Source of the DNA: Victivallis sp. Marseille-Q1083
GTDB lineage: Bacteria; Verrucomicrobiota; Lentisphaeria; Victivallales; Victivallaceae
Direction of reading: 5' to 3'
NCBI RefSeq assembly: GCF_903645315.1
Contig: NZ_CAHJXL010000001.1
Coordinates: forward strand, 186,001-250,000
Length of the DNA stretch: 64,000 bases
Translations under genes and position numbers: made by a program
In this document: positions 42,888-56,366 of the stretch, in pieces
How the letters are laid out: every line of letters begins with the position of its first letter
Numbering within the stretch: the first letter of the stretch is position 1
Notes under the pieces: generated by a model
Told to the model about the DNA's origin: nothing
Databases searched by the model: none
The model's input: the letters and a program-made list of their open reading frames with translations, nothing else

Positions 42888-44072
42888 TTACGGTTTTTGC
42901 AGCAACTCCAACACCGTCAGCAGACAACGCGGCACGTGAAAGAAACCTTTCCAGGCTCCTCCCTTGACGTCCTGGCAAACCGTCCCATCCAGCTCCGTCA
43001 AAGCAAACCATTCGCCGCCGCGTTTTTCATCGCGCAAATGCCGCCAGATCCAGCGATCGACCGCCCAGAAACGCTCGGACCATTCTTCTTCTCCGGTCAA
43101 ATGCCAGCAGTAAAACGCCGCCACCAGGGCCTCGCACTGCGCCCACCAGGCTTTCACGCCGGCGGTCGGCTCCGGACAGGGCAACTGCAACGCATCGGCG
43201 ACGTAAAAAACTCCGCCATGCTTGAAATCCCAGGCGTACTGCCAGATGATGTCGCAGAAATTCAACGCCCGCCGAAGCAGCGCCTGGTCACCGATGCGTT
43301 CGGCATATTGCATGACGAACCACATCGCTTCCAGGCCGTGGCCCGGATTGACCAGACGGCCCTCCGGCGTCTCCCAATCGAACGATCCGTCCGGATTGGC
43401 ACGCTCGAAGAACCGGCCGCACTGCGGCGAATAGAAGGCAAAGCACTCTTCCACCGCCTCACCGGCCAGCCCGATATAATCGTTGGTATCCAGATAACCG
43501 CTGACCGTGCAAGCGGTATTGATCATGATCAACTTATGGCCGAAGCGGCGGCCGGCCGGCAAACCGTAGTAATTGCCGGACTCAAAACGCCGGATGCTGT
43601 CGGCGAAATATTCCAGGCAGCGGCGCGCTTCCCGCTCGTACTTCGCCTCTCCGGTCGCCCGGTACAGCGCCGCCGCTCCGAGCGCGGCGAAGCTCTCGCT
43701 GAACAATGCCCGCTCATCGGCGGCCGGAATTCTGATCGCCCCCTCCCGGCTGAGCGCCAGGGCCAGGGCGCCATCCGGCTGCCGGCCGTGCCGCTCGACA
43801 AATTCATAGCCCTGTACCGCCGCGGCCAGATACGCCGGACAGCCGAAAGGCGAAGCCGCCAACCGGGCGAACATGTAGATATTGCGCCACTGCAGCCACA
43901 TGTATTTGTCAAACCCGAACGGCTTGCCGTCACCGTCCAGCATGGTCAGAAAGCCGCCGAATTCCCGGTCGACACTGTGCTGCAGCCAGAACGGCGTGAT
44001 TTCCTCCAGCAACTCCTGTTCGTAACATTGCCGCAAATCTTCCAATACACACGGTCCGTTTGTTTCGCTCAT
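42888..44072 (-). CDS. N-acylglucosamine 2-epimerase (AGE) family protein
   Basis: 394 residues from ATG 44072 with GGGAGG upstream. An (alpha/alpha)6-barrel protein of the AGE family. Typical segments are FWLQHSVDREFGGFLTMLDGDG near the start, the WLQWRNIYMFARL helix, NPGHGLEAMWFVMQYA with the conserved His, and VKAWWAQCEALVAAF. Members epimerise C2 of GlcNAc, glucose/mannose or terminal sugars of disaccharides such as cellobiose and mannobiose. Last gene of the operon, after a 117-bp gap and before a strong terminator. The adjacent GH113-like gene makes mannose or mannobiose chemistry one reasonable idea, not a proven one. Confidence 0.9.
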   Translation of the reverse strand: MSETNGPCVLEDLRQCYEQELLEEITPFWLQHSVDREFGGFLTMLDGDGKPFGFDKYMWLQWRNIYMFARLAASPFGCPAYLAAAVQGYEFVERHGRQPDGALALALSREGAIRIPAADERALFSESFAALGAAALYRATGEAKYEREARRCLEYFADSIRRFESGNYYGLPAGRRFGHKLIMINTACTVSGYLDTNDYIGLAGEAVEECFAFYSPQCGRFFERANPDGSFDWETPEGRLVNPGHGLEAMWFVMQYAERIGDQALLRRALNFCDIIWQYAWDFKHGGVFYVADALQLPCPEPTAGVKAWWAQCEALVAAFYCWHLTGEEEWSERFWAVDRWIWRHLRDEKRGGEWFALTELDGTVCQDVKGGAWKGFFHVPRCLLTVLELLQKP

Positions 44073-44189
44073 GCTTCGCCTCCCTGGCCGACGGCCGGTT
44101 TGAATGTTGACGAAAAACTGTCCGCTGACATCAGATATCTTACAATTCCGGTTGGAAAAATGCAATCCCGCAACGGACAAAACCGTCGA

Positions 44190-45278
44190 TCATTTCCCGC
44201 CGCCGCGCCTGCCGAACCAGCGCCGCATCACCGCCTCCGCCGGTTTGCCCTGAATCGTAAATCCTTTGTCGACGCCGGGTTCGTCGAAATAATGCGGCCG
44301 GTGCTGCGTTTCATCCCATTTCCACCAGTACAATCCGAGCCACTGCGGCACCGTCCAGAACGTCCGGAAAACCGCCTCCATATAATCGGCCTGTTCCCGG
44401 CCGTCGTAGCCGGTTTTTTCCAGGAAATCGAACGGCCGGGAAATACAGCCGTGGGCGGAGCGCACGCCGATTTCGGTGAAAGCCACCGGCTTGCGGCCGA
44501 ACCGTTTGGACAGCCGTTCGACCTTGGAACGCCGGGCGGAGAGAAATTCCACCATCTGCTCAACGCTGTAATGCGGATGGTCGGCGAAAGCCGGCTTGCC
44601 GTCCGGGACCGGACACGCCGGCGGATAATAACTGTAAGAGAGAAAGTCCAGTTCATCGAACCAGTCCAGTTCATAATCTTCCAGCGATTTGAAGGTGCAC
44701 TCGTAGGTAAGCGGACCGGAGTAAACAGCACGGATTGCCGCGATGACTTCCCGCCATTCGGCGCCGCGCCCCTCGGTACCGAAATATTCGGCGCCGATGA
44801 TCATCGCTTCCAATCGGTTGCGTTCGGCAAATTCGGCAAAATATTTGCTGCTCTCGATGAAACTGTCGAACCATTCGCGCCAGTAATCCGACTGCACGCC
44901 GTTGATCTGCCGGCCTTCCGGGAAAGCGACCGACCCCATCCAACTGCCGTCCAGCGGCGTCAGGCACGGTTTGAATAAAACGCGCAATCCGGCATCGTGC
45001 ATCGCCCGGGCCATATCAGTCAATTCCGCCTCGCCGGAAGAATAGGCAAAGTCCAGAAACACTTTGCGCGACGCGAATGTCTCCTGGCAGAAATTGGCAT
45101 TCAGCGTCACCCAGTTGACCCCGGCGGCAGCCATCAGCGCCGGTTGGGCGAGCACTTCCGGCCGCCGGTAATACCCCCGCCCGGCCATGAAGCCGAAATT
45201 CATGCCGCAATGCAGTTCATTGAACAGCGGATGATTTTTGAAACGGGACGGAATGTCGACTTGTGAATGGTCCAGCAT
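44190..45278 (-). CDS. Probable glycoside hydrolase, GH113-like TIM barrel
   Basis: 362 residues from ATG 45278 with AAAGGAGC upstream. No signal peptide. A (beta/alpha)8 barrel with two candidate catalytic acids at strand ends: Glu164 in IIGAEYFGTE and Glu269 in VAFTEIGVRS. This pattern fits the GH-A clan, and the closest memory match is GH113 (beta-1,4-mannanase). The 105-residue spacing between the acids is longer than I recall for GH113, so the family call is tentative. It lies 4 nt after the oxidoreductase gene in the module 2 operon. Confidence 0.7.
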   Translation of the reverse strand: MLDHSQVDIPSRFKNHPLFNELHCGMNFGFMAGRGYYRRPEVLAQPALMAAAGVNWVTLNANFCQETFASRKVFLDFAYSSGEAELTDMARAMHDAGLRVLFKPCLTPLDGSWMGSVAFPEGRQINGVQSDYWREWFDSFIESSKYFAEFAERNRLEAMIIGAEYFGTEGRGAEWREVIAAIRAVYSGPLTYECTFKSLEDYELDWFDELDFLSYSYYPPACPVPDGKPAFADHPHYSVEQMVEFLSARRSKVERLSKRFGRKPVAFTEIGVRSAHGCISRPFDFLEKTGYDGREQADYMEAVFRTFWTVPQWLGLYWWKWDETQHRPHYFDEPGVDKGFTIQGKPAEAVMRRWFGRRGGGK

Positions 45279-45282
45279 TTTT

Positions 45283-46374
45283 TCAGCTCCTTTTCGCTTC
45301 GATTTTTTCCGGCCGGCCGGAGGCGATGCTGCGGTAACAGGCATTCATCGCCTCGATCGTCTGCCGGTGCCAGCGCAGATTGATCTTCGGCTGGATATGA
45401 TGCCGGATACAGCCGACGAATTCATCGATCAGGCCGATCCATTCGTCGAAATAGGTGTACTGCACCGTATAGCGATCATGCGGCGCACCGTTGTGGTAGA
45501 CATTCGGCCCGAAGCAGTCGCACATCAGCACGCCTTCGTCGCCGACCACCGTCAGATTGACTTCCATCCGTTTCGGGAATTTCTCCCAGCCCGGTCCCGG
45601 AATGCTCAGCCGTTCTTCCAGCCGCGACCAGGACGGGTCGAACAGGAAGGCGGTGCCGTCGGTCATTTTGCCGTTGACCAGCAGCATATCCTCGACTTCC
45701 AGTTCCGGCCGCAGGTTCGGCCCGGCCGCCGAATACACGAAGTCGAAATCGGCGCCGGTCAGGTGACGAACTAGATCGAACACGTGCGGATGATCGCACA
45801 ACGCGCCGCCGCGGCACCGCCGGTCGCCGGCTTTGAGCGGCACCCGGGCGCCGTAACTGGCCTCCGGCACCCCCTGCCAGGGAAACGCCCAGACCGGCGA
45901 CAGCGTGATGTTGGTCGCCTGGATGGAACGGACACGACCGACCGCTCCGGCGGCGATCAGCTCCTTCAGCCGCCGTACCACCGGATTGTAATGCATTTCC
46001 AGCTCGATCTGCAAGATGACGCCTGCCGCGTCGACGGCGGCGATCATCTCATCGTATTCGGCCGGGTCGAAGGTTGGAATTTTCATCGACAGCATATGCA
46101 GTCCCCGGCCGGCGCACGCTTTGACCTGGGCCGCATGGCGGCAGTTGGCCGAAGCGATGACGACCGCCTCAATGTCCGGATGACGCTCGAACATTTCCTC
46201 CTCGCTCAGATAACACGGCACCTGCCGTTCATAAGCGGCGTAAACCTGCCGGGCGGCTTCATCTTCGGCGCAGCAGGCCACCCATTCCAACCGCGGATTG
46301 TCGCGCAGGGTCTGGTAATACTTCCGGGTATGTCCGTGGGTCAGGGACATCATCGCAATTTTCACCGGTTTCAT
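45283..46374 (-). CDS. Gfo/Idh/MocA-family oxidoreductase
   Basis: 363 residues from ATG 46374 (GGAAGG upstream), overlapping the previous stop by 4 nt. N-terminal Rossmann domain; the first strand reads VKIAMMSLTHGHTRKYY, so the usual GxGxxG is replaced by a THGHT loop as in some family members. The conserved active-site-type segment (MKIPTFDPAEYDEM, in place of EKP) shows a Lys at the expected spot. The C-terminal domain carries the catalytic-type His (GGALCDHPHVFDLVRHL). Expected to oxidise or reduce a sugar or sugar derivative with NAD(P). Confidence 0.92.
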   Translation of the reverse strand: MKPVKIAMMSLTHGHTRKYYQTLRDNPRLEWVACCAEDEAARQVYAAYERQVPCYLSEEEMFERHPDIEAVVIASANCRHAAQVKACAGRGLHMLSMKIPTFDPAEYDEMIAAVDAAGVILQIELEMHYNPVVRRLKELIAAGAVGRVRSIQATNITLSPVWAFPWQGVPEASYGARVPLKAGDRRCRGGALCDHPHVFDLVRHLTGADFDFVYSAAGPNLRPELEVEDMLLVNGKMTDGTAFLFDPSWSRLEERLSIPGPGWEKFPKRMEVNLTVVGDEGVLMCDCFGPNVYHNGAPHDRYTVQYTYFDEWIGLIDEFVGCIRHHIQPKINLRWHRQTIEAMNACYRSIASGRPEKIEAKRS

Positions 46375-47117
46375 CCTTCCATCCTTTCCGTAAAGACCGT
46401 CGACTCCCCGGCGGCGGCACCGGCGAGTATTCTGGAAACCTGCCGGGCCAGCCGGTCGGCCGCCGCTTCCCATTCGCCGGCCAGAGCCGGCCGGCTCAAC
46501 ACGGCAAACGCCGCCCGCAAAGGCCAGATTGCCGTCTCATCGAAACCGAACAGCTCCAGATCGCAATCGGTAAAACACCGTTCCCCGCCAGCGGTGAAAA
46601 CGTAGATCGAAGCCTGCGGCAACTGCGTATCCACCACCCGGTCGGAGGCGACACCGCGCCGGGCGATGATCTCATGGCGATCGAGCCGTTTCAACCGGCC
46701 GCCCGGATCGGCGACACACTCCAGACTGCAATTCCAGCCGTTGTCCAAACCGGCGACGACATTGCAGCACCGCGTCCCGCCGCCGACTGCAAAGGCCGAA
46801 CGCAGCCGGCTGCCGCTGAAAAATTCACACAAATCCAATTCGCGCAATAAAACCGCCGCCAGATTTTCCTCCGGCAGACAGGCAAAAAATCGCAGCGTCG
46901 AAACCTCCTCCAGGGTGTGGTCGTCGATCATTTTTTTCAATTCAACGAAACGCCGTTCCACCCGCCACGGCAACAGCGGCGTTGCCGGGCCGCCGGTTCG
47001 CTGCAGCGCCGCCGGCACCGGCATTCCGGCAGGCGGCGCCACCAACCGCCCGTCGGACGGCACGGCGTATTTGGCGCACAATCGCACCAGCGCCTCATTC
47101 ATCTCTGTCAGATTCAT
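46371..47117 (-). CDS. Conserved-looking protein of unknown function
   Basis: 248 residues from ATG 47117 with AAAGGGA upstream. No signal peptide or membrane segment. I do not recognise a family. A central region rich in Cys/Gly (FAVGGGTRCCNVVAGLDNGW) and a hydrophobic C-terminal helix segment (ETAIWPLRAAFAVLSRPAL) are the visible features. It sits between the SIS-domain protein and the oxidoreductase, with translational overlap to the latter, so it likely serves the same pathway as a subunit or an uncharacterised enzyme. Confidence 0.7.
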   Translation of the reverse strand: MNLTEMNEALVRLCAKYAVPSDGRLVAPPAGMPVPAALQRTGGPATPLLPWRVERRFVELKKMIDDHTLEEVSTLRFFACLPEENLAAVLLRELDLCEFFSGSRLRSAFAVGGGTRCCNVVAGLDNGWNCSLECVADPGGRLKRLDRHEIIARRGVASDRVVDTQLPQASIYVFTAGGERCFTDCDLELFGFDETAIWPLRAAFAVLSRPALAGEWEAAADRLARQVSRILAGAAAGESTVFTERMEG

Positions 47118-47154: not shown

Positions 47155-47913
47155 CTACAGGCTTTTGATCCGCGGCATATATTTTTCCAGCGAAGCCCGG
47201 TTGGCTTCATCGCCGCCCGGGGTGTTGGCGCTTTTCCAGACCGGCGGCACGATGCCGCGCGCCAGACACTGCCGGGCGGTTTCGATCTCCAGCAGATGGG
47301 CGATGGTAAAATCGACCACATTGGAAATCGGTGCAACCGGCGTATCCATCCCCGGCAATTCGACCACCGCGTCGCCGACCGGATTGTAATCGTCGATGCA
47401 GACATCGGCCAGATCGAACAGATTCCGACCGGACGGATGGCGGATAAAGTGATCCGCCGGCATCTGCCGCTGCCAGCAGGAACTCGAGACGGCGATGATC
47501 TGGACGCCGTGTTCTTTGGCTTCCAGCGCCGCATCGATCGTCGCGGCGTTGATGCCGATGTTGTGAAAGATCAGCAGCAAATCTCCCGCCTGCAGTTGGT
47601 AATACCGGACGATCGCCCGGCCGTAATTGACGCAACGTTCCAGTTCCAGGTATTTCAACGCCTGGTTGAATACCGACAGGCCGGTTTCCATCAGCGGATT
47701 GATATTGCAAAATCCGCCGGCCCGGAAAAAGATTTCCCCCATCGCCAGCGTCGTATGGCCGCCGCCGCCATAGACGTTGATCAGCCGGTCGGCGGCGATG
47801 GCATCGGCCATCAGGCCGGCGGCGCGGCGGATGTTGCCGCCCTGCTCGGCGACGACCCGCCTGATGTTGCTGAAAATTTTTTCGACATAACCGCCATCAT
47901 TCCATTCCGTCAT
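47155..47913 (-). CDS. SIS-domain sugar-phosphate protein (UPF0309-like)
   Basis: 252 residues from ATG 47913 (AAGGAG 8 nt upstream; ATG 47919 is too close to it). SIS fold with phosphosugar-binding motifs: LINVYGGGGHTTLAMGEIFF, then FRAGGFCNINPLME, then LLLIFHNIGINAATIDAAL and IIAVSSSCW. The HPSGRNLFDLADVCIDD segment matches the UPF0309 group of sugar isomerase-like proteins. The substrate is probably an amino-sugar or hexose phosphate. In the module 2 operon. Confidence 0.85.
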   Translation of the reverse strand: MTEWNDGGYVEKIFSNIRRVVAEQGGNIRRAAGLMADAIAADRLINVYGGGGHTTLAMGEIFFRAGGFCNINPLMETGLSVFNQALKYLELERCVNYGRAIVRYYQLQAGDLLLIFHNIGINAATIDAALEAKEHGVQIIAVSSSCWQRQMPADHFIRHPSGRNLFDLADVCIDDYNPVGDAVVELPGMDTPVAPISNVVDFTIAHLLEIETARQCLARGIVPPVWKSANTPGGDEANRASLEKYMPRIKSL

Positions 47914-47934
47914 TTCCATTCTCCTTTCCCCTGC

Positions 47935-48966
47935 TTATTTCCGGATGACCCGCCGGTAATTCCGGCCGATGCGGTCCCATAACTGCAACGCGTCCGGCGC
48001 CGCCAGCACCGTGCCGTAGCCGCCGCGGTACGTCCAGGTTCCCAGCCGGTCGACGCCGAGCGATTCGTAGAGTGAAACGATTTCGTCGACCTGGCTGAAC
48101 TCCTCCGGCTGTTTGTAATAGCCCATCAGCCAGCGTTCCGACAATTTTCCATATTTGCGGGCGATTTCCACTGTCCGCCGGGTGACGTCGACGAAGAAAC
48201 TGCGCGGCAGATTCCAGGCGATGATCGTCGTCGAAAACACATCGAAACAGGGCGAGGTCGCCACCAGGTCCCAGTTGTCATAGCCGCGCAGTTCGGTCAC
48301 ATAGTAACCGTTCAGCGTCGCATGAACGCAGCAGGTGATTTCGAGCGCCGGTTTGAACTCTTTGAGCCGGCGCGAAGTATCCTCCAGGATAACCAACGCT
48401 TCCCGCCAGCGGAACTGTTTGACATCGTCGTTGAGCACTTTCGGCATTTCATAACCGTAATAGTCCTGAAATTTCCGCCGGCAGACCGGGCACCGGCAGC
48501 TCCAGTCCTCGCCGGCGCCGCCGGTGATCGAAGCGAAGGACTTCGGCAGCGCATAGTGCGGCTCATCCCAGAAAAAACCGTCGGCGGCGGTTTCCCGTGC
48601 CAGCGTCAGACAGAAATTCTGAAAGTAGTCCCGAAACGAGCCGGTGTTGAAACAGGCGGCGTTGAGTTTGGCGCCGCTCAACGCGGCGACCTGCCGGTTT
48701 TCGAGATGGTTCTGCAGAAACAGACTGATTTGCTCGCCGCCGAAATATTTGCCGATGCCCCACGGGTCCAGCAACACCTTCAACCCCAGCCGATGCGCCT
48801 GGTCGACGATGGCGCCGAGGTTCGGCCGCCAGAAATCGAAATCGAATTCCGTTACCGCCAGGATGACGGCCGTGCAGCCATGCTCCAGCATCTCCTGGAA
48901 ATCGGCGGCGGCATGTTCCACATAATTGAGCCCGTAATAACTGATTGAAGTTTGTGTAATCGCCAT
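47935..48966 (-). CDS. Uncharacterised TIM-barrel-like protein with a CxCxxC motif
   Basis: 343 residues from ATG 48966 (GGAAGGATGG upstream). No signal peptide. The pattern of strands and acidic residues (ILAVTEFDFDFWRPNLGA, LKVLLDPWGIGKYFGG, GFFWDEPHYALP) suggests a (beta/alpha)8 hydrolase-like fold with the Asp-Glu of FFWDEPH as a likely active-site pair. A CRCPVCRRKF segment (about 165) resembles a small metal-binding knuckle. Second gene of the regulator-led operon, 37 nt after the regulator. No recognised family; a glycoside hydrolase-like role is inference. Confidence 0.7.
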   Translation of the reverse strand: MAITQTSISYYGLNYVEHAAADFQEMLEHGCTAVILAVTEFDFDFWRPNLGAIVDQAHRLGLKVLLDPWGIGKYFGGEQISLFLQNHLENRQVAALSGAKLNAACFNTGSFRDYFQNFCLTLARETAADGFFWDEPHYALPKSFASITGGAGEDWSCRCPVCRRKFQDYYGYEMPKVLNDDVKQFRWREALVILEDTSRRLKEFKPALEITCCVHATLNGYYVTELRGYDNWDLVATSPCFDVFSTTIIAWNLPRSFFVDVTRRTVEIARKYGKLSERWLMGYYKQPEEFSQVDEIVSLYESLGVDRLGTWTYRGGYGTVLAAPDALQLWDRIGRNYRRVIRK

Positions 48967-49003: not shown

Positions 49004-50134
49004 CTAATGATGATTCAAAAGGTATTTTCCACTTCGGCCGGCCTCCGGCATCATCCGGCCGCCGCCGAAATCAAAGGAACTCTCCCGCACCATCAACTCC
49101 GGATTGAGGTAGCTGATCGAATGACCGGCCCCGCCGTTGCCGCGGACGCGCTGCAACAGCATTTCGACGGCGTTTTCGGCGATTTGAGCGATCGGATAGG
49201 AGATACTGCTCAACGACGGAAACACCTCCATCGCCATCGGCAGGTTGTCGAATCCGACGATCGACAACTCCTGCGGCACTTTCAATTTGCCGATCCGGGC
49301 GCAGCGCAGCATCCGCATCGCCAGCAGGTCGTGGTAACAGAACAACCCCGTCTTGCGGCCGTTGTAAAGTTCGACGAGCTTGGTCGGCGACAACACCTCG
49401 TCGAGATTGCGGGCGTCGACCAGGATGATGTGTTCCGGAGGCAAAGCCCGATTCTGCGCCGACAACTCGCCGGCGAAGCCCTGGAGCCGCAAATCGTCCT
49501 GAAAATTTTTAATCCCGACATAAATGAAATCCCGGCAGCCGCATTCGATCAGATGCCGGGCCACCAACCGGCCGGCTTCGAAGTTGTGCACCATGACCAC
49601 GTCGCTGTCGAAATTCTTCAACTGCCGGCCGATGACGACGAAAGGAAGCGACAATTCAGCCAGCGCCGGAACCGATTTTTCATCATGGGCCGGACAGATC
49701 AGGAATCCTTTGGCGCCGCTGTCGGCCAGCATCGCCAGTTGGGCCTTCTCATGCTGAAGGTCGTAATTGCTGCAGGCCGAAAAAATTTCGACATCACGAC
49801 GCCGGCCGCTCAGCTCAACCGCATTGACCAGCCGGGAAAAAAACGGGTTGTCGACGTTCGTCACCAGCACCGCAAAGCGCCAGCCGCGGTCGAGCTGGGC
49901 CGGTTGCTCCCGGTAAACGATTTGCAACCGTTTACTGGCGCTCTTGAGGATGCCGAGCGACTGCAGCTCCGACACCACCTTCTGGGCGGTCACCAGCGCG
50001 ACGCCGAACTCTTCGGCGATTTCCCGAACCGTCATAAACGGTGTTCCGATGTTGCCGTGCTCGCCGCGGGCGATCTCCCGGCGCAACTGGGCAACAATCT
50101 GTTGTTTCTTATTATAACGGTTGGACAACTGCAT
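49004..50134 (-). CDS. GntR/LacI hybrid regulator of module 2
   Basis: 376 residues. N-terminal GntR-type winged helix (TPFMTVREIAEEFGVALVTA, QKVVSELQSLGILKS), then a LacI-type sensor (RFAVLVTNVDNPFFSRLVNA, ELSIVGFDNLPMAMEVFPSLSSISYPIAQIA in parts). It is the first gene of the minus-strand operon running to 42888 and diverges from two pseudopilin genes. Its own promoter and theirs carry the same paired TTGTTAT element, which makes this protein the obvious candidate to bind it. That it is a repressor is inferred from the site position within the promoter spacers. Confidence 0.92.
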   Translation of the reverse strand: MQLSNRYNKKQQIVAQLRREIARGEHGNIGTPFMTVREIAEEFGVALVTAQKVVSELQSLGILKSASKRLQIVYREQPAQLDRGWRFAVLVTNVDNPFFSRLVNAVELSGRRRDVEIFSACSNYDLQHEKAQLAMLADSGAKGFLICPAHDEKSVPALAELSLPFVVIGRQLKNFDSDVVMVHNFEAGRLVARHLIECGCRDFIYVGIKNFQDDLRLQGFAGELSAQNRALPPEHIILVDARNLDEVLSPTKLVELYNGRKTGLFCYHDLLAMRMLRCARIGKLKVPQELSIVGFDNLPMAMEVFPSLSSISYPIAQIAENAVEMLLQRVRGNGGAGHSISYLNPELMVRESSFDFGGGRMMPEAGRSGKYLLNHH

Positions 50135-50158: not shown

Positions 50159-50201
50159 ATTATAGTAACTATATAACAACATAACAACAAAAATATAACA
50201 A
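50159..50201 (-). promoter_or_regulatory. Regulator promoter with paired TTGTTAT operator
   Basis: Minus strand: -10 TATAAT (50159-50164), 17-nt spacer, -35 TTGTTA (50182-50187). TTGTTAT occurs at 50195-50201 (upstream of -35) and 50173-50179 (in the spacer), 22 bp apart. A third copy at 50181-50187 is the -35 box itself. Confidence 0.8.
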
Positions 50202-50307
50202 CAAAAGTCGAAAAACGTTGCCGGCGGCTTTTGAGAAGCTGGGTCCGCCCGCCGGATTGCGCATTGCCGCCAAAACAACTCGCACACGGCGTTATTTTGC
50301 ACTTTTT

Positions 50308-50350
50308 TTGTTATGCAATTGTTGCCTTGTTGTTATGTTTTCACTATACT
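50308..50350 (+). promoter_or_regulatory. Pseudopilin 1 promoter with paired TTGTTAT operator
   Basis: -35 TTGCCT (50322-50327), 17-nt spacer, -10 TATACT (50345-50350). TTGTTAT at 50308-50314 and 50330-50336, 22 bp apart. The second copy lies in the spacer, 8 nt before the -10 box. Confidence 0.85.
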
Positions 50351-50409
50351 TCAATAGTAGAGACGAACCAAATACCGTCAATAATACACAACTCAGAAAG
50401 GGTCCGGAA

Positions 50410-51099
50410 ATGAACAAACGCCGCTTCACATTGATTGAATTGCTGGTCGTGATCGCCATCATCGCCATCCTCGCCAGTATGCTGCTGCCGGCGCTCGGCA
50501 GGGCCAAGGCCAAAGCCCAGGAAATCAAATGTGTCGGAAATTTGAAGCAGCTCGGGCTGGCCAATCTTTTTTACGCCGACGACAACGACGACTATTCGCC
50601 CCGGCCGGTCGGCTATGCCGAATCGAACTGGGGAATCGACAAGATCTTCTGGCCGTATAAAATCGCACCTTACGCCGGCAGTCATATCGACACCGACGAC
50701 GACACCACCCAGGAGAACTGGCGGACCAATCTGATTTTTCACTGTCCGTCGGAAGGCACCGCGCCCTATTTCGGCTACGGCAAAAACATGACCACCGAAA
50801 ACTTCACGGCCAACGGCGGCCTGATCAAACTGGCCTCCTACGTCGATCCGAGCAGCAAAGGCGTCTTCGTCGACGATTACACCACCGGCAGCCGCAACTC
50901 GCTGGTCATGTACAGTTGGAACCGTTACGACGCCAAAGTAGTGGGTGCGGTCACCCCCCGCCACAGCAACGGCGCCAACATCGGCTTCGCCGACGGCCAC
51001 GTTGAAAAATACGGGGCGCAAAAGCTGGAATCCGTCCTGGCCCTGGCCGGCAAAAACGGCCAGACCATGTGGTACTACAACATTCCGACCGAGCAATAA
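50410..51099 (+). CDS. Pseudopilin with H-X9-DG domain (module 2, first)
   Basis: 229 residues from ATG 50410 (AAAGGG upstream). Pilin signal MNKRR then [19 protein letters not shown], with Arg instead of Gly at -1. It is followed by the family's [20 protein letters not shown] helix with Cys, a variable globular domain, and the H-X9-DG motif [13 protein letters not shown]. Nearly identical to its neighbour at 51310 for the first 45 residues, unrelated after that. It has its own operator-bearing promoter. The likely role is a surface or periplasmic pseudopilus component tied to the sugar locus. Confidence 0.93.
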
Positions 51100-51189
51100 G
51101 CAGTTCCCCGTTTCCCCTGCCGGCAGCCGTCCGCCGCCTCGACCGGCCGGGCCGCCGGCTCCTCCCGCAAACTCCATTTTCATTCTTTT

Positions 51190-51232
51190 TTGTTATGCCT
51201 TTATTGTTTCGTTGTTATATCCGGCTTATACT
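51190..51232 (+). promoter_or_regulatory. Pseudopilin 2 promoter with paired TTGTTAT operator
   Basis: -35 TTGTTT (51204-51209), 17-nt spacer, -10 TATACT (51227-51232). TTGTTAT at 51190-51196 and 51212-51218, 22 bp apart. The second copy lies in the spacer, 8 nt before the -10 box. Confidence 0.85.
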
Positions 51233-51309: not shown

Positions 51310-52044
51310 ATGAAAAAGTACCAATTCACTCTGATTGAACTGCTGGTCGTGATCGCGATCATCGCCATCCTCGCCTCCATGCTGCTGCCGGCGCTCGGCA
51401 AAGCCAAGGCCAAAGCGCAGGCCATCAAATGTCTCGGCAACCTGAAACAGCACGGCATCGCCGCCATCCTGTACGCCGGCGACTGGAACAGCTATCCGTG
51501 GAGCGAATACCGGGCGGCCACGACCGGGCAGCGGTATGCGGTAGTCGGCGTCCTGGCGGAATCGGGTTATCTGTCCTCGCCGGCAACCTGGCACTGTCCC
51601 GCCAACACGACCACCACCAATAATTTTACCGACATCCCACCGGACGACTGGCAATCGGGCGCCTGGCCGGATTCCCGGACCATGGTCAACTATGCCTACA
51701 ATCGCAATTTCCTGAAAGCGCTGCGGGTCTGGGGCACCTGGAATCATTGCGGTGATTGCGCCGCCCACGGCGGCTCGGAGCAAAGTGCGGCAGCGATCGA
51801 CGGTTCGCCTTATGCGGCCGGTTCGATCATGTTCTGCGACGGCAGCCTGATTTATCTGGACGATACCCACTGGGTCACCGATATCGACAAGCAGGGCAAT
51901 GCCACCGGCCGGATCCGTTTCGTTCATAACAACCGGATGAATTTCGTCCGCGGCGACGGTTCCGGCGATCAGGCGATCATCAGCGAACTGGTCGCCGACA
52001 ATGTTGCATTTTATAAGAAATATTATTCGATCTGGTGCGATTAA
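51310..52044 (+). CDS. Pseudopilin with H-X9-DG domain (module 2, second)
   Basis: 244 residues from ATG 51310 (AAAGGATCGG upstream). Pilin signal MKKYQ then [19 protein letters not shown], with Gln at -1. The variable domain is Cys- and Thr-rich ([25 protein letters not shown]), and the closing motif is [13 protein letters not shown], a proper H-X9-DG. It ends 33 nt before the secreted DUF4091 gene, so the two should be co-transcribed from the operator-bearing promoter at 51190. This links surface pilin and hydrolase directly. Confidence 0.93.
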
Positions 52045-52077: not shown

Positions 52078-54549
52078 ATGCACAATCGATTTTTACTCAC
52101 CCTCCTCGCCGCGCTGTCGGCCGGCAACTGGCTGGCGGCGGCCGACTGGCTGCTCAACGACTTCGAAACGCCGGAGGAGATCGCCCAATGGCGGATCCGA
52201 GAATCACCCCAGAAAATGCCGGAACTGACGCTCAATCGCGAATCGCAATTCGTCACCTCCGGCCGGGGCTGCGGGCAATTCGATTCTCCCGGCACCCGCA
52301 GCGGCGGTCCGGGCTGGCCGGCTTTCCTGCTTCCCGGCGACCGGATGAACCGCGACGACTGGCGCGCCTTCGACGAAATCACTTTCGATGTCTACAATCC
52401 GTCCGAGCTGGAAATCAGCCTGTGGCTGCGCTTCACCGTCGAAGGCGGCCTGTGGCACAGTTTCCGGGTCCAGGTGCTGCCCGGCTCCAATCACCTCGCC
52501 GCCGCCTTGCCGGAACTCGTCAGCCGGGGAAAAATGACCGAATTTCAATTTTTTCACAACGAACCGCCGGAGGACCGGACTCTTTATATCGACAATCTGC
52601 GGCTGCTGGTGACGCCGGCGAAAACCGTCGAAAAATGGGAGCGGCTGCGCAGTGGACTGAACGATCCGGAGCGGCTGCCGATCCGGGAAGCGGCCGGCAG
52701 ACAGGCCGATTTCGCTGCCTTCGCGACCAGGCTCGACACCTGGCGGCAAATCGATGATCCGATGACGGCGGCCGAAACGTTACTGACCTGGCGGGACGAG
52801 CTGGCAAAACTGGAAAAGGAATGCGACGACGCCTTCAACCGGCGGAAAATCACCGAATGGCAGCAGAATTTTCCGAACCAGCCGTGGGGATACGCCGTCG
52901 AAACCGGCAGCCGGAAGGTATTCCGCGACGAAGTGCCGTTTCAGGGCACGCCGGGCGGCAGCCTGCAAATAACGCTGGCCCGTCACGAATACGAGGCCGC
53001 CCAACTGGTCCTGCGCGCCAGTCAGGCCGTCGCCACGGTCACGGCCGGGGTCAGCGATTTAACCGATCCGGCCAGCGGCCGTACCATCGATCGCGGCAAC
53101 ATCCGCATCCATCCGGTCGGATACGTCCGGCCGCCCCGTGTTTCCTATGCCGAACGGCTGACGCAGTGGTACCCGGATATCGTATTGACCGACCTGGCTC
53201 AATTCGATCTTGCCGCCGAGGTCTGGCAGCCGTTGTGGGTGGAAGTTTACGCGCCACGCGACACCGCCGCCGGCACCTATGAAGGCACCATCACCGTCCA
53301 TGGCGCCGGAATGGAATCGCTCATCGTTCCGCTGTCGGTCACCGTCTGGGATTTTACGCTGCCGCTTGCCGCTTCGCTGCCGAACCTCTTCACCTACGAA
53401 GCCAACCGGGCCCACCGGCGCTATGCCCGCAACCAGGCGGAATACGACGAATATGTCCGTTTCAAAAAACGGCAAATTGCCTACGACCAACTGAGTCCCG
53501 GCGCCCGGCGCCTGCGCGACCTGGAAATCACCAGCGAAAACCTGCTGCTCGCGCACCGCTGTTCGCCGTCGAGCCTGTACAATACCAGCTGGACGCCGCA
53601 GGTTGACGACGTCAGGCGCTGGATCGACCGCGGCGCCAGTTGTTTCAATATCCTCTGCGTACCGGGCATCGCTTCGCTGCGCGAAGGCGAACCGTATCCG
53701 GCCGACCGCAAAGCCGAAATTCTCGCACTGCTCGCGGCGGCAGTCCCGCAATACGACCAGGCCGGACTGCTTCCCTACGCCGTCATCTACGGTTTCGACG
53801 AAAGCAGTCCGAACCAGTACGCCGGCATGCGCGACATCATGCGGGAAATCAAACAGCGTTACCCGTCCATTCCGTTATTGACCACCGCTTTCGATTACAG
53901 TTTCGGCCGGGAGAGCGGCACCGGCGAGTATCTGAACGCCTGGTGCCCGCTGACGCCGCAATTCGAAAAACATCGCGACGCAATCCGGCAGAAGCAGCGG
54001 GAAGGGTTGCAAATCTGGTATTACACCTGTTGCGTCCCGTCGCCGCCGGCAGCCAATTTATTGCTGGAGCAAAGCGGCGTCGCACCGCGTATGCTGCTCG
54101 GCGCGCTCGCCGCCCGTTACGCGCCGGACGGTTATTTGTACTACCAGACCACGATGTGGCCGGACGATACGCCGCTCGTCGCCGGCGGCGTGCTGACCAA
54201 CCAGGACGGCCGATCTTCCTACCAGGGCTACAACGGCGACGGCCTGCTGCTGTACGCCGGCCGGAACGGTCCGCTACCCAGCCTGCGCCTGAAGGCGATC
54301 CGCGACGGCCTGGAGGATTATGAATATTTTCATCTGCTGCAGCAACTGGCCGACGAAGCGGCCGCCGGCCGCCGCGACCTGAACGACGGAGACCGCGAAA
54401 CGCTGCGGCAACTGCTGGCGGAATTGCCGCAACTGGCCGAGAGTTTCGAATCCTTCGATCAATCGGGCAACGCGTTGCTCGCCTATCGGCGTCGGGTCGG
54501 CGACTTCCTCTCCCGGCACCTGTGCCGCTCCGCGCCTGCGGTCCGGTAA
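52078..54549 (+). CDS. Secreted DUF4091 protein, predicted glycoside hydrolase
   Basis: 823 residues with signal peptide (LLTLLAALSAGNWLAAAD). The N-terminal beta-sandwich (about 25-180) resembles a carbohydrate-binding module (FNDFE-type start: LLNDFETPEEIAQW). A helical linker (190-270) and another beta domain (290-440) follow. The rest is a TIM-barrel-like region with YGFDESSPNQYAG (about 570, likely catalytic acids) and DUF4091 at the end (SLRLKAIRDGLEDYEYFHLL, about 735-755). Last gene of the pseudopilin 2 transcript, followed by a terminator at 54577. Confidence 0.87.
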   Translation: MHNRFLLTLLAALSAGNWLAAADWLLNDFETPEEIAQWRIRESPQKMPELTLNRESQFVTSGRGCGQFDSPGTRSGGPGWPAFLLPGDRMNRDDWRAFDEITFDVYNPSELEISLWLRFTVEGGLWHSFRVQVLPGSNHLAAALPELVSRGKMTEFQFFHNEPPEDRTLYIDNLRLLVTPAKTVEKWERLRSGLNDPERLPIREAAGRQADFAAFATRLDTWRQIDDPMTAAETLLTWRDELAKLEKECDDAFNRRKITEWQQNFPNQPWGYAVETGSRKVFRDEVPFQGTPGGSLQITLARHEYEAAQLVLRASQAVATVTAGVSDLTDPASGRTIDRGNIRIHPVGYVRPPRVSYAERLTQWYPDIVLTDLAQFDLAAEVWQPLWVEVYAPRDTAAGTYEGTITVHGAGMESLIVPLSVTVWDFTLPLAASLPNLFTYEANRAHRRYARNQAEYDEYVRFKKRQIAYDQLSPGARRLRDLEITSENLLLAHRCSPSSLYNTSWTPQVDDVRRWIDRGASCFNILCVPGIASLREGEPYPADRKAEILALLAAAVPQYDQAGLLPYAVIYGFDESSPNQYAGMRDIMREIKQRYPSIPLLTTAFDYSFGRESGTGEYLNAWCPLTPQFEKHRDAIRQKQREGLQIWYYTCCVPSPPAANLLLEQSGVAPRMLLGALAARYAPDGYLYYQTTMWPDDTPLVAGGVLTNQDGRSSYQGYNGDGLLLYAGRNGPLPSLRLKAIRDGLEDYEYFHLLQQLADEAAAGRRDLNDGDRETLRQLLAELPQLAESFESFDQSGNALLAYRRRVGDFLSRHLCRSAPAVR

Positions 54550-54833: not shown

Positions 54834-54862
54834 TTGCAGTTTTTCCATTGTGGTGATATGCT
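54834..54862 (+). promoter_or_regulatory. Promoter of the APC permease gene
   Basis: TTGCAG (54834-54839), 17-nt spacer, TATGCT (54857-54862), about 80 nt before the start codon. Confidence 0.6.
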
Positions 54863-54944
54863 ATTGGTCGGAGGAGAATTCGTTTTTTTATTGCGCCGGC
54901 AGCCGCATCTTGCGCTGTCGTATTGTCGAAGAGGAGTCGTATCT

Positions 54945-56366
54945 ATGTCTGCCAAAGCCAATATGAGTGTATTCACACTGTCGATGCTGAACATCGCCGC
55001 CGTACTGTCGATCGTCAATTTTCCCACCCAGGCGGTCTACGGATACCAGATCATTTTTTACATTTCGGCGGCGGCGGTCTGCTTCTTCATCCCGACCGCG
55101 CTGGTTTCGGCGGAACTGGCCTCCGCCTGGCCGTACGACGGCGGCGTTTATCTCTGGGTCAAAGAGGCATTCGGCCCGCAATGGGGCTTCGTCACCGTCT
55201 GCATGCAATGGCTGAACAGCCTGCCCTGGTTCGCCACCGTATTGACTTTCATCGCCACGACGATCGCCTACATTTTCAATCCGGAACTGGCAAGCAACCG
55301 CAGGTTCGTCTTTTCGGTCGCCGTCACCACGATGTGGCTCTGCACCTTTCTCAATTTCCGGGGCGTCAAACTCTATGCGCTGCTGAGCAGCATCGGCGCC
55401 ATCGCCGGCACGATCTTTCCGGTCGCCGTCATCATCGTGCTGGCCGTCTGGTATCTTTCCGACGGCAATCCGGCGGCAATTCCATTTTCCTTTCACGCCA
55501 TGCTGCCGAAGCTCGACAGCCTGAAGGAGTGGATGCTGCTGGCCGGTATGATGGTCGCCATCGCCGGCATCGACATGCCGGCCGTGCACGTCACCGATGT
55601 CAACAATCCGCAGAAGAATTTCCCGCGCGCCATCCTGATCTCTTCGGTGCTGATCATTCTATTGAGCATTTGCGGCTCCCTGTCGATCTCGCTGATCGTC
55701 CCGCCCCAACAGTTGAGCCTGGCCTCCGGCGCTCCGGATGCCTTCGACAAGATGCTGACCGCGCTCGGGCTGCACTGGCTGACGCCGGTGATGTGTCTGT
55801 TTCTGATCTGCGGCGCGTTGACGACGGTGATCACCTGGACGCTCGGTCCGTCCAAAGGACTGCTTGAAGTCGCCAAGGAGGGTTATCTGCCGCCGTTCTG
55901 GCAAGAACGCAACCGGTACGATATCCCGGTCCGCATCCTGACGCTCCAGGCGATCATCCCGTCGCTGATCGCCACCGTCATCTTTTTCATGCCGACCATC
56001 AGCGGCGCGTTCTGGGTGATGATGGCGCTGTCGGCGCAATTGTACATGATGATGTATCTGTTGATGTTTTCCGCCGCCATCCGGCTGCGTTATTCGAAAC
56101 CGGACGTGGCCCGGCCGTATAAAATTCCCGGCGGCAAAACCGGGATGTTCTGTGTCGCCGGCCTCGGCTTCCTGACCTCGCTGGTCTCGATGGCCGCCGG
56201 CTTCATCCCGCCGGAAGACATTCGGGCCAAAGGGATCTGGCACTCGCTCGGCTACATGAGCTTCCTGTCCGCCGGGACCGTTTTCTTCCTGATCGCCGCC
56301 TGGCTGCTCTGCCGGCGGCAGACGAAGAAAAAAGCCATGGAAACAACCGTGAACCATCCATCCTGA
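54945..56366 (+). CDS. APC-superfamily amino acid permease (GadC-like)
   Basis: 473 residues from ATG 54945 (GAGGAG upstream). About twelve transmembrane helices. Family segments include AELASAWPYDGGVYLWVKEA in TM2-3, VAIAGIDMPAVHVTDVNNPQ in the middle with FPRAILISS after it, and ARPYKIPGGKTGMF near the end. Closest in flavour to glutamate/GABA antiporters and related amino-acid exchangers. No decarboxylase gene adjoins, so an acid-resistance role is not supported. Single gene with its own promoter and the module 2 terminator upstream. Confidence 0.9.
   Translation: MSAKANMSVFTLSMLNIAAVLSIVNFPTQAVYGYQIIFYISAAAVCFFIPTALVSAELASAWPYDGGVYLWVKEAFGPQWGFVTVCMQWLNSLPWFATVLTFIATTIAYIFNPELASNRRFVFSVAVTTMWLCTFLNFRGVKLYALLSSIGAIAGTIFPVAVIIVLAVWYLSDGNPAAIPFSFHAMLPKLDSLKEWMLLAGMMVAIAGIDMPAVHVTDVNNPQKNFPRAILISSVLIILLSICGSLSISLIVPPQQLSLASGAPDAFDKMLTALGLHWLTPVMCLFLICGALTTVITWTLGPSKGLLEVAKEGYLPPFWQERNRYDIPVRILTLQAIIPSLIATVIFFMPTISGAFWVMMALSAQLYMMMYLLMFSAAIRLRYSKPDVARPYKIPGGKTGMFCVAGLGFLTSLVSMAAGFIPPEDIRAKGIWHSLGYMSFLSAGTVFFLIAAWLLCRRQTKKKAMETTVNHPS

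Follow-up and report, generated by a model that had tools for sequence, protein, structure and literature searches.

The window analysed here, a 64,000-nucleotide stretch of the genome of Victivallis sp. Marseille-Q1083, contains three promoters that each carry two direct copies of TTGTTAT (TTGTTAT-N15-TTGTTAT), and our analysis indicates that this element is very probably the operator of a regulator encoded beside it. The regulator (49004–50134, minus strand) has 376 amino acids and combines, according to Pfam, a GntR-like winged helix (residues ~10–67) with a LacI-type sugar-binding domain (~87–353). In its own promoter, the predicted operator found by exact motif search lies at 50173–50201 (minus strand) and is kept before orthologous regulators; the −10 box TATAAT is read from the sequence at 50159–50164 (minus strand), and a third TTGTTAT is present at 50181–50187. 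The other two promoters precede genes for proteins with prepilin-type N termini, both on the plus strand: pseudopilin 1 (50410–51099; TIGR02532 and TIGR04294 above cut-off, H-X9-DG motif) and pseudopilin 2 (51310–52044; TIGR02532 above cut-off). Their predicted operators, located by the same exact search, are at 50308–50336 and 51190–51218 (both plus strand), and their −10 boxes, each TATACT, at 50345–50350 and 51227–51232 (plus strand). The two pseudopilins share 76% identity, over the first 62 amino acids only.

In all three promoters the copies of TTGTTAT have a period of 22 bp, and the proximal copy is followed by the −10 box after a gap of 8 nt. These coordinates, exact copies and spacings had been reported in an initial annotation of this DNA, and on renewed search all of them proved correct, as did the constant 8-nt distance. 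Its description of “three divergent promoters” holds for the regulator and pseudopilin 1, which are divergent, but not for pseudopilin 2, which lies on the same strand as pseudopilin 1 and downstream of it. Its discussion also passed over the weakness of the −35 region: the TTGnnn hexamer 17 bp 5′ of the −10 box reads TTGTTA at the regulator, TTGCCT at pseudopilin 1 and TTGTTT at pseudopilin 2, matching TTGACA at 4/6, 4/6 and 3/6 positions.

The window contains 11 copies of TTGTTAT, where 3.28 would be expected, and none of 100 shuffles reaches 11. We scanned the whole genome (G000; 4,822,457 bases, or 4.82 Mb, in 5 contigs) and found the exact pair at three places only, all of them at the window promoters. 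The view of the initial annotation that such agreement is very unlikely by chance is borne out by this restriction and by the excess over shuffles, and the element is not a sequence that occurs frequently away from promoters. One mismatch adds 2 more places and two mismatches add 50; since this total of 55 equals the 55 of the reversed control, the looser pattern is background. When the spacing was freed (N4–N34, TTGTTAY), 7 genome matches were obtained against 12 in the reversed control: 4 in the window promoters, one of which arises through the extra half-site at 50181, and 3 elsewhere (C1:783043, C2:298618 and C1:2324052). The first two of these three were examined, and neither has a −10 box at the expected place; the 21-bp pair at C1:783043 was rejected on that ground. 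A 1-mismatch pair at C2:298615, 184 bp before a pseudopilin gene, was also rejected: it has no −10 box where one would be expected, it is followed downstream by a separate TTGACT, and the count with two mismatches is the same as for the reversed pattern. A search of genome contigs with the regulator yielded no relatives.

Elsewhere, 37 relatives of the regulator were found. We analysed the regions of 35 (G165 and G179 were left out), of which 34 include upstream DNA (L131 does not). In an unrooted tree of 36 regulators, a branch with 100/100 support splits clade A (11 proteins, including that of the window) from clade B (25 proteins). All 11 clade-A regulators have a forward TTGTTAY pair at 21 or 22 bp before their own gene. 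Over the 34 orthologue upstream regions, direct TTGTTAY pairs at 21/22 bp are exact in 10 (shuffle mean 0.0; 100 shuffles); with up to 1 mismatch they are found in 11 (0.05), namely 10 of clade A and, in reversed orientation, L124 of clade B. Direct pairs at 11/12 bp with up to 1 mismatch are present in 17 of the 34 (0.06), and one or the other spacing in 26 (0.11). Of the 17 regions in which our script detected the shorter spacing, 16 are among the 24 of clade B and one, L056, is in clade A. By eye, we recognized 11/12-bp pairs in four more clade-B regions (L122, L123, L129 and L064), three of which (L123, L129 and L064) the script had cut since the tblastn start preceded the ATG. The remaining four clade-B regions (L042, L057, L058 and L059) have inverted layouts by eye, weak in L057. 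The clade-B 11/12-bp pairs are mostly reversed and lie between the −10 box and the ATG, often behind TTGAC-type promoters. The TTGTTAY half-site itself stays much alike across both clades.

The spacings of half-sites in the 34 regions show a pattern of their own: inverted pairs peak at 16, 27–28 and 37–38 bp, and direct pairs at 11–12 and 21–22 bp. This suggests an 11-bp lattice that would place the half-site copies on the same side of the helix in either orientation. The inverted pair at 16 bp occurs in 9 of the 34 regions, including cases where ATAATAA overlaps the −10 box 16 bp behind the proximal copy. Inspection of the sequence showed no 16-bp inverted half-site in the window promoters.

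We then asked how the element is distributed over 197 genomes of the class, scanning for the pair followed at 8 nt by a loosely defined −10 box. This gave 14 matches in 10 of the 197 genomes, against 2 in the reversed control. Nine of the 11 genomes with a clade-A regulator had a match, as against 1 of the 186 others (Fisher 5e-13, relatedness ignored). Eight matches stand before the regulator, 5 before other genes and 1 in G170. The five at other genes are those of pseudopilins 1 and 2 here and of a G135 pseudopilin gene, together with those before a G133 gene that matches CBM9 weakly and before its G134 counterpart, which we placed by its near-identity to the G133 gene rather than by a domain scan of the G134 copy. 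The link between pseudopilin genes and the sugar-catabolic regulator therefore appears in two genomes, which belong to different families of the class. The scan missed two clade-A genomes, G137 and G138, in which the −10 box follows after 9 nt, and also the regulator promoter of G135, whose distal copy is CTGTTAT. In 8 relatives, pairs with up to 1 mismatch numbered 39 against 67 in the reversed control, and 5 of the 39 are exact: 4 at regulator promoters and 1 in G014. Exact pairs at 21/22 bp in 8 clade-A genomes numbered 10 (7 at regulator promoters, 3 at other promoters) against 6 reversed. In 12 clade-B genomes, 17 exact 11/12-bp pairs were counted, compared with 10 for the reversed pattern; regulator promoters account for 10 of the 17, and the remaining 7 are within background.

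Comparison of 16 elements shows how closely the site is tied to the promoter. The proximal TTGTTA is invariant, and its gap to the best −10 box is 8 nt in 14 elements and 9 nt in 2. The same lock is seen at other genes, that is, at the two pseudopilins here, the G135 pseudopilin, and the G133 CBM9-like gene and its G134 copy. Most of the −10 boxes are ordinary TATAAT-like sequences, and none of the 16 linkers contains TTGAC. A scan of upstream regions for promoters (TTGAC, 16–18 bp, −10 box of at least 5/6) found none in 13 clade-A regions (shuffle mean 0.06) and 14 in 24 clade-B regions (0.12), relatedness being ignored in these counts; when a −10 box of 4/6 was allowed, the numbers were 0/13 and 16/24. 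The contrast between clade-A and clade-B promoters, with 24 clade-B promoters, has a Fisher p of 6.8e-5. Such promoters also precede 17 of 29 other LacI-like regulator genes of the Victivallis genome, the 29 being the regions covered among 38 other matches. In the script-resolved clade-B promoters, the position of the first half-site varies between ~5 and 30 nt behind the −10 box, counted from the start of the box. The clade-A layout, locked to the −10 box and straddling a weak −35, is of the kind seen with activators and slightly favours activation over repression; the movable clade-B sites, most of which lie on the downstream side of the promoter, resemble those of repressors. We also considered an additional repeat halfway through the 22-bp element, at 11 bp, as some elements have TTGTT at +11. 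It was rejected because columns −11 to −9 carry only 0.3, 0.8 and 0.02 bits and a TTG there better fits the −35 register.

Based on these patterns, we propose a mechanism in which binding, the dimer, the ligand, the extent of the operon and the sign of regulation are what we infer. The element is very probably the operator of the 49004–50134 regulator. This protein would probably act as a dimer joined through its LacI-type domains, its two winged helices contacting one TTGTTAY half-site each. With the −10 box set at −12 to −7, the half-sites would occupy ~−49 to −43 and −27 to −21, two helical turns (21–22 bp) apart on the same DNA face and flanking the weak −35. Since the half-sites are in tandem, a twofold-symmetric dimer would need a mobile winged helix to contact both. 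A sugar-derived ligand would enable the dimer on the DNA to keep RNA polymerase in place over the weak −35, in the manner of a −35-straddling activator. The regulator would in this way control itself and its own sugar-catabolic operon, and here also pseudopilin 1 and pseudopilin 2 with the GH123 gene behind it. Because the site is locked to the −10 box and the −35 is poor, activation seems the most likely sign, although we would give it only a little better than an even chance once the identity of the operator is granted. For the full reading, an operator of the adjacent regulator that is bound by a dimer and activates, we estimate a probability of about 0.5. The regulon that the initial annotation ascribed to a GntR/LacI hybrid stands as a small one, given the genome distribution, the unbroken series of clade-A regulator promoters and the exact pair that this genome has only here; the GntR part of that description is less firm, the domain falling below the Pfam cut-off.

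Several observations weigh against this reading. G170 has the pair with a −10 box and no regulator of this group at E≤1e-42, and G014 has an exact pair with neither a clade-A regulator nor a −10 box at the right place. Long branches (L056, L121, L128, L042 and L064) drew a warning from the tree program. The GntR domain is below the cut-off in 7 of the 8 proteins that show it, and 3 of 10 relatives have no GntR match at E≤0.01. A TTG stands at the 17-bp −35 place in 10 of the 16 elements, so the −35 may work alone. The geometry may have been kept by descent or by promoter duplication, not by contact with polymerase. Finally, the LacI- and GntR-type regulators that govern catabolic operons are in most cases repressors, repression being the usual mode of LacI-type proteins, and the same half-site in clade B mostly lies downstream of the promoter, which is a repressor layout. 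The same operator and protein could thus serve repression: a dimer covering −49 to −21 would block polymerase from the −35 and spacer, and would leave when sugar binds its LacI-type domain. We regard this as a serious contender, at somewhat less than even odds. The proximal half-site does sit inside the −35/−10 spacer, the half-sites of many clade-B orthologues are found behind TTGAC promoters, and an autoregulated catabolic operon would fit well. However, repression has no need for a site locked 8 nt from the −10 box at unrelated genes, the first half-site of the resolved clade-B promoters varies in position, and repression leaves the lack of TTGAC promoters in clade A unexplained.

Two further explanations concern the ownership of the element and its reality. 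If it were that of a different regulator, or of an alternative sigma factor, its place beside the gene would be coincidental; a constant spacing from the −10 box could suit a sigma-type element. We consider this improbable, since the element co-occurs with the orthologue group, 185 of the 186 other genomes lack it, its TTGTTAC variant appears among the 16 elements only in the sister orthologues L063 and L125, and the −10 boxes are mostly of the ordinary kind. Chance, or low-complexity T-rich upstream DNA, might be invoked because TTGTTAT is T-rich and mismatched patterns are at or below their reversed controls, both in this genome and in the 8 relatives. This is practically refuted by the shuffle test and the 197-genome scan: exact promoter pairs are kept over divergent proteins, well above shuffles. 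Returning to activation by the adjacent regulator, we tentatively suggest, at rather less than even odds, that within one orthologous group and with the same half-site the operator was rebuilt between two layouts: for repression, 11-bp or inverted repeats behind a strong promoter, and for activation, a direct repeat of two turns that straddles a weak −35 and keeps a constant distance to the −10 box. The sign would then change by re-spacing, made possible by a winged helix that rotates freely where there is no LacI hinge helix. As the tree is unrooted, such a change could have run either way. One half-site in direct 11-bp, direct 21–22-bp and inverted layouts among orthologous proteins amounts to a natural series; with a handful of proteins and short DNA, it allows a test of how a regulator turns from a repressor into an activator.

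The arrangement recalls that of lambda CII, where direct repeats also straddle a weak −35, with a shorter period and an unrelated protein. To our knowledge, the GntR regulators with direct-repeat sites (FarR, NagQ, NanR and the MocR type) have other effector domains, none of them LacI-type. The initial annotation called a direct-repeat operator unusual where GntR sites are normally palindromic. It is indeed a minority form, but one that is already reported for the GntR-family FarR, NagQ and NanR and for the MocR-type GabR, TauR and PdxR (PMC4494728, PMC5320631); as we propose here, direct repeats serve GntR-type winged helices (PMC4494728). The repeats of MocR sites are separated by two or three helical turns, and boxes are direct in some related groups and inverted in others (PMC5320631). 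The element is therefore a variation on known direct-repeat GntR sites, which exist in other subfamilies. Bacillus subtilis AraR operators have inverted half-sites around GTAC. Unlike these, the half-site here is TTGTTAY in direct repeats; instead of a palindromic operator, clade A has direct repeats throughout, and inverted pairs are found only in part of clade B. The hybrid layout of a GntR-type winged helix and a LacI/GalR-type domain is known from the AraR subfamily (PMC4494728), which shares with our regulator a tie to sugar-catabolic genes; one conserved arginine, and two native AraR operators that are not palindromic, are mentioned in PMC4333415. The arabinose repressor chain 3tb6 is the 24th of 50 solved chains matched by our regulator, whose LacI-type domain is nearer to other LacI-type proteins. 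No arabinose genes are among the identified neighbours (SIS, Gfo/Idh, GH113, epimerase and GH123), and AraR orthology was not indicated, in an analysis whose tree does not include AraR. Read by eye against the FadR positions, the regulator family keeps the “VRE” arginine and mostly has Leu/Pro where FadR, NagR and AraR keep a second arginine.

Tandem boxes with ~21-bp periodicity are described for sugar regulons of other protein families, such as Bacteroides HTCS/SusR-like regulators and Caldicellulosiruptor DeoR-family AxgR and others (PMC3878776, PMC8579813); the Bacteroides figure is our sum of box and spacer, and the portions of text available are silent on a lock to the −35/−10 spacer. 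Our literature search, which covers subscription papers poorly, turned up no paper that describes such a site for any GntR/LacI hybrid, and none on Lentisphaerae regulators of this type. A regulator group for which no described site was found thus obtains a predicted operator with tight promoter geometry.

The regulator's GntR domain (PF00392) scores E 2.8e-5 and 24.1 bits, below the Pfam cut-off of 27, and its Peripla_BP_3 domain (PF13377) scores E 1.3e-28, above cut-off. Among the 10 relatives scanned, PF13377 is above cut-off in all, and PF00392 is detected at E≤0.01 in 7, of which 1 is above cut-off. Between the two domains the regulator alignment shows a short, variable stretch with gaps, in which no LacI hinge helix is apparent. 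On the minus strand, next to the regulator, lies a gene (47935–48966) whose product has no Pfam or NCBIfam match and is found near the regulator, with 62–80% identity, in 31 of the 35 relatives' regions. Likely members of the same operon, all on the minus strand, are a SIS-domain sugar isomerase-like protein (47155–47919; PF13580 E 2.8e-32, NF002805 above cut-off), protein Y (46371–47117; no Pfam or NCBIfam match, present in 16 of the 35 relatives' regions), a Gfo/Idh/MocA-type oxidoreductase (45283–46473; assigned by domain match and relatives' regions), a GH113-type glycoside hydrolase (44190–45344; PF22612 E 1.3e-65) and an N-acylglucosamine 2-epimerase-like protein (42888–44180; PF07221 E 9.8e-36). 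In many of the 16 regions that hold protein Y, its gene sits between the SIS-domain and Gfo/Idh genes. The start of the Gfo/Idh/MocA open reading frame overlaps protein Y, and the true start is probably further in. On the plus strand, a GH123-type protein (52078–54549; PF13320 E 2.7e-15) is encoded 33 bp behind pseudopilin 2 and is probably co-transcribed with it. Behind it is a gene for a GadC-like amino acid permease (54834–56366, plus strand; TIGR03813 E 6.7e-135, below cut-off), which is odd for a sugar locus.

Two minor observations were made during the genome scans. Matches to TTGAC-N17-19-TATAAT number 64 in the genome, against 6 in the reversed control; many promoter-like matches read TTGACTTTT ... 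TTTTGCTATAAT, often with TGC before TATAAT. Separately, TTTGTATTTTTCCTGTTATTTGTTGTTAT has 9 copies in the genome, at G000:C1:459706 and 8 other places (L179:2007-2035). The single copy that we examined lies ~290 bp from an IS110-family transposase gene, so the sequence probably belongs to an insertion sequence.
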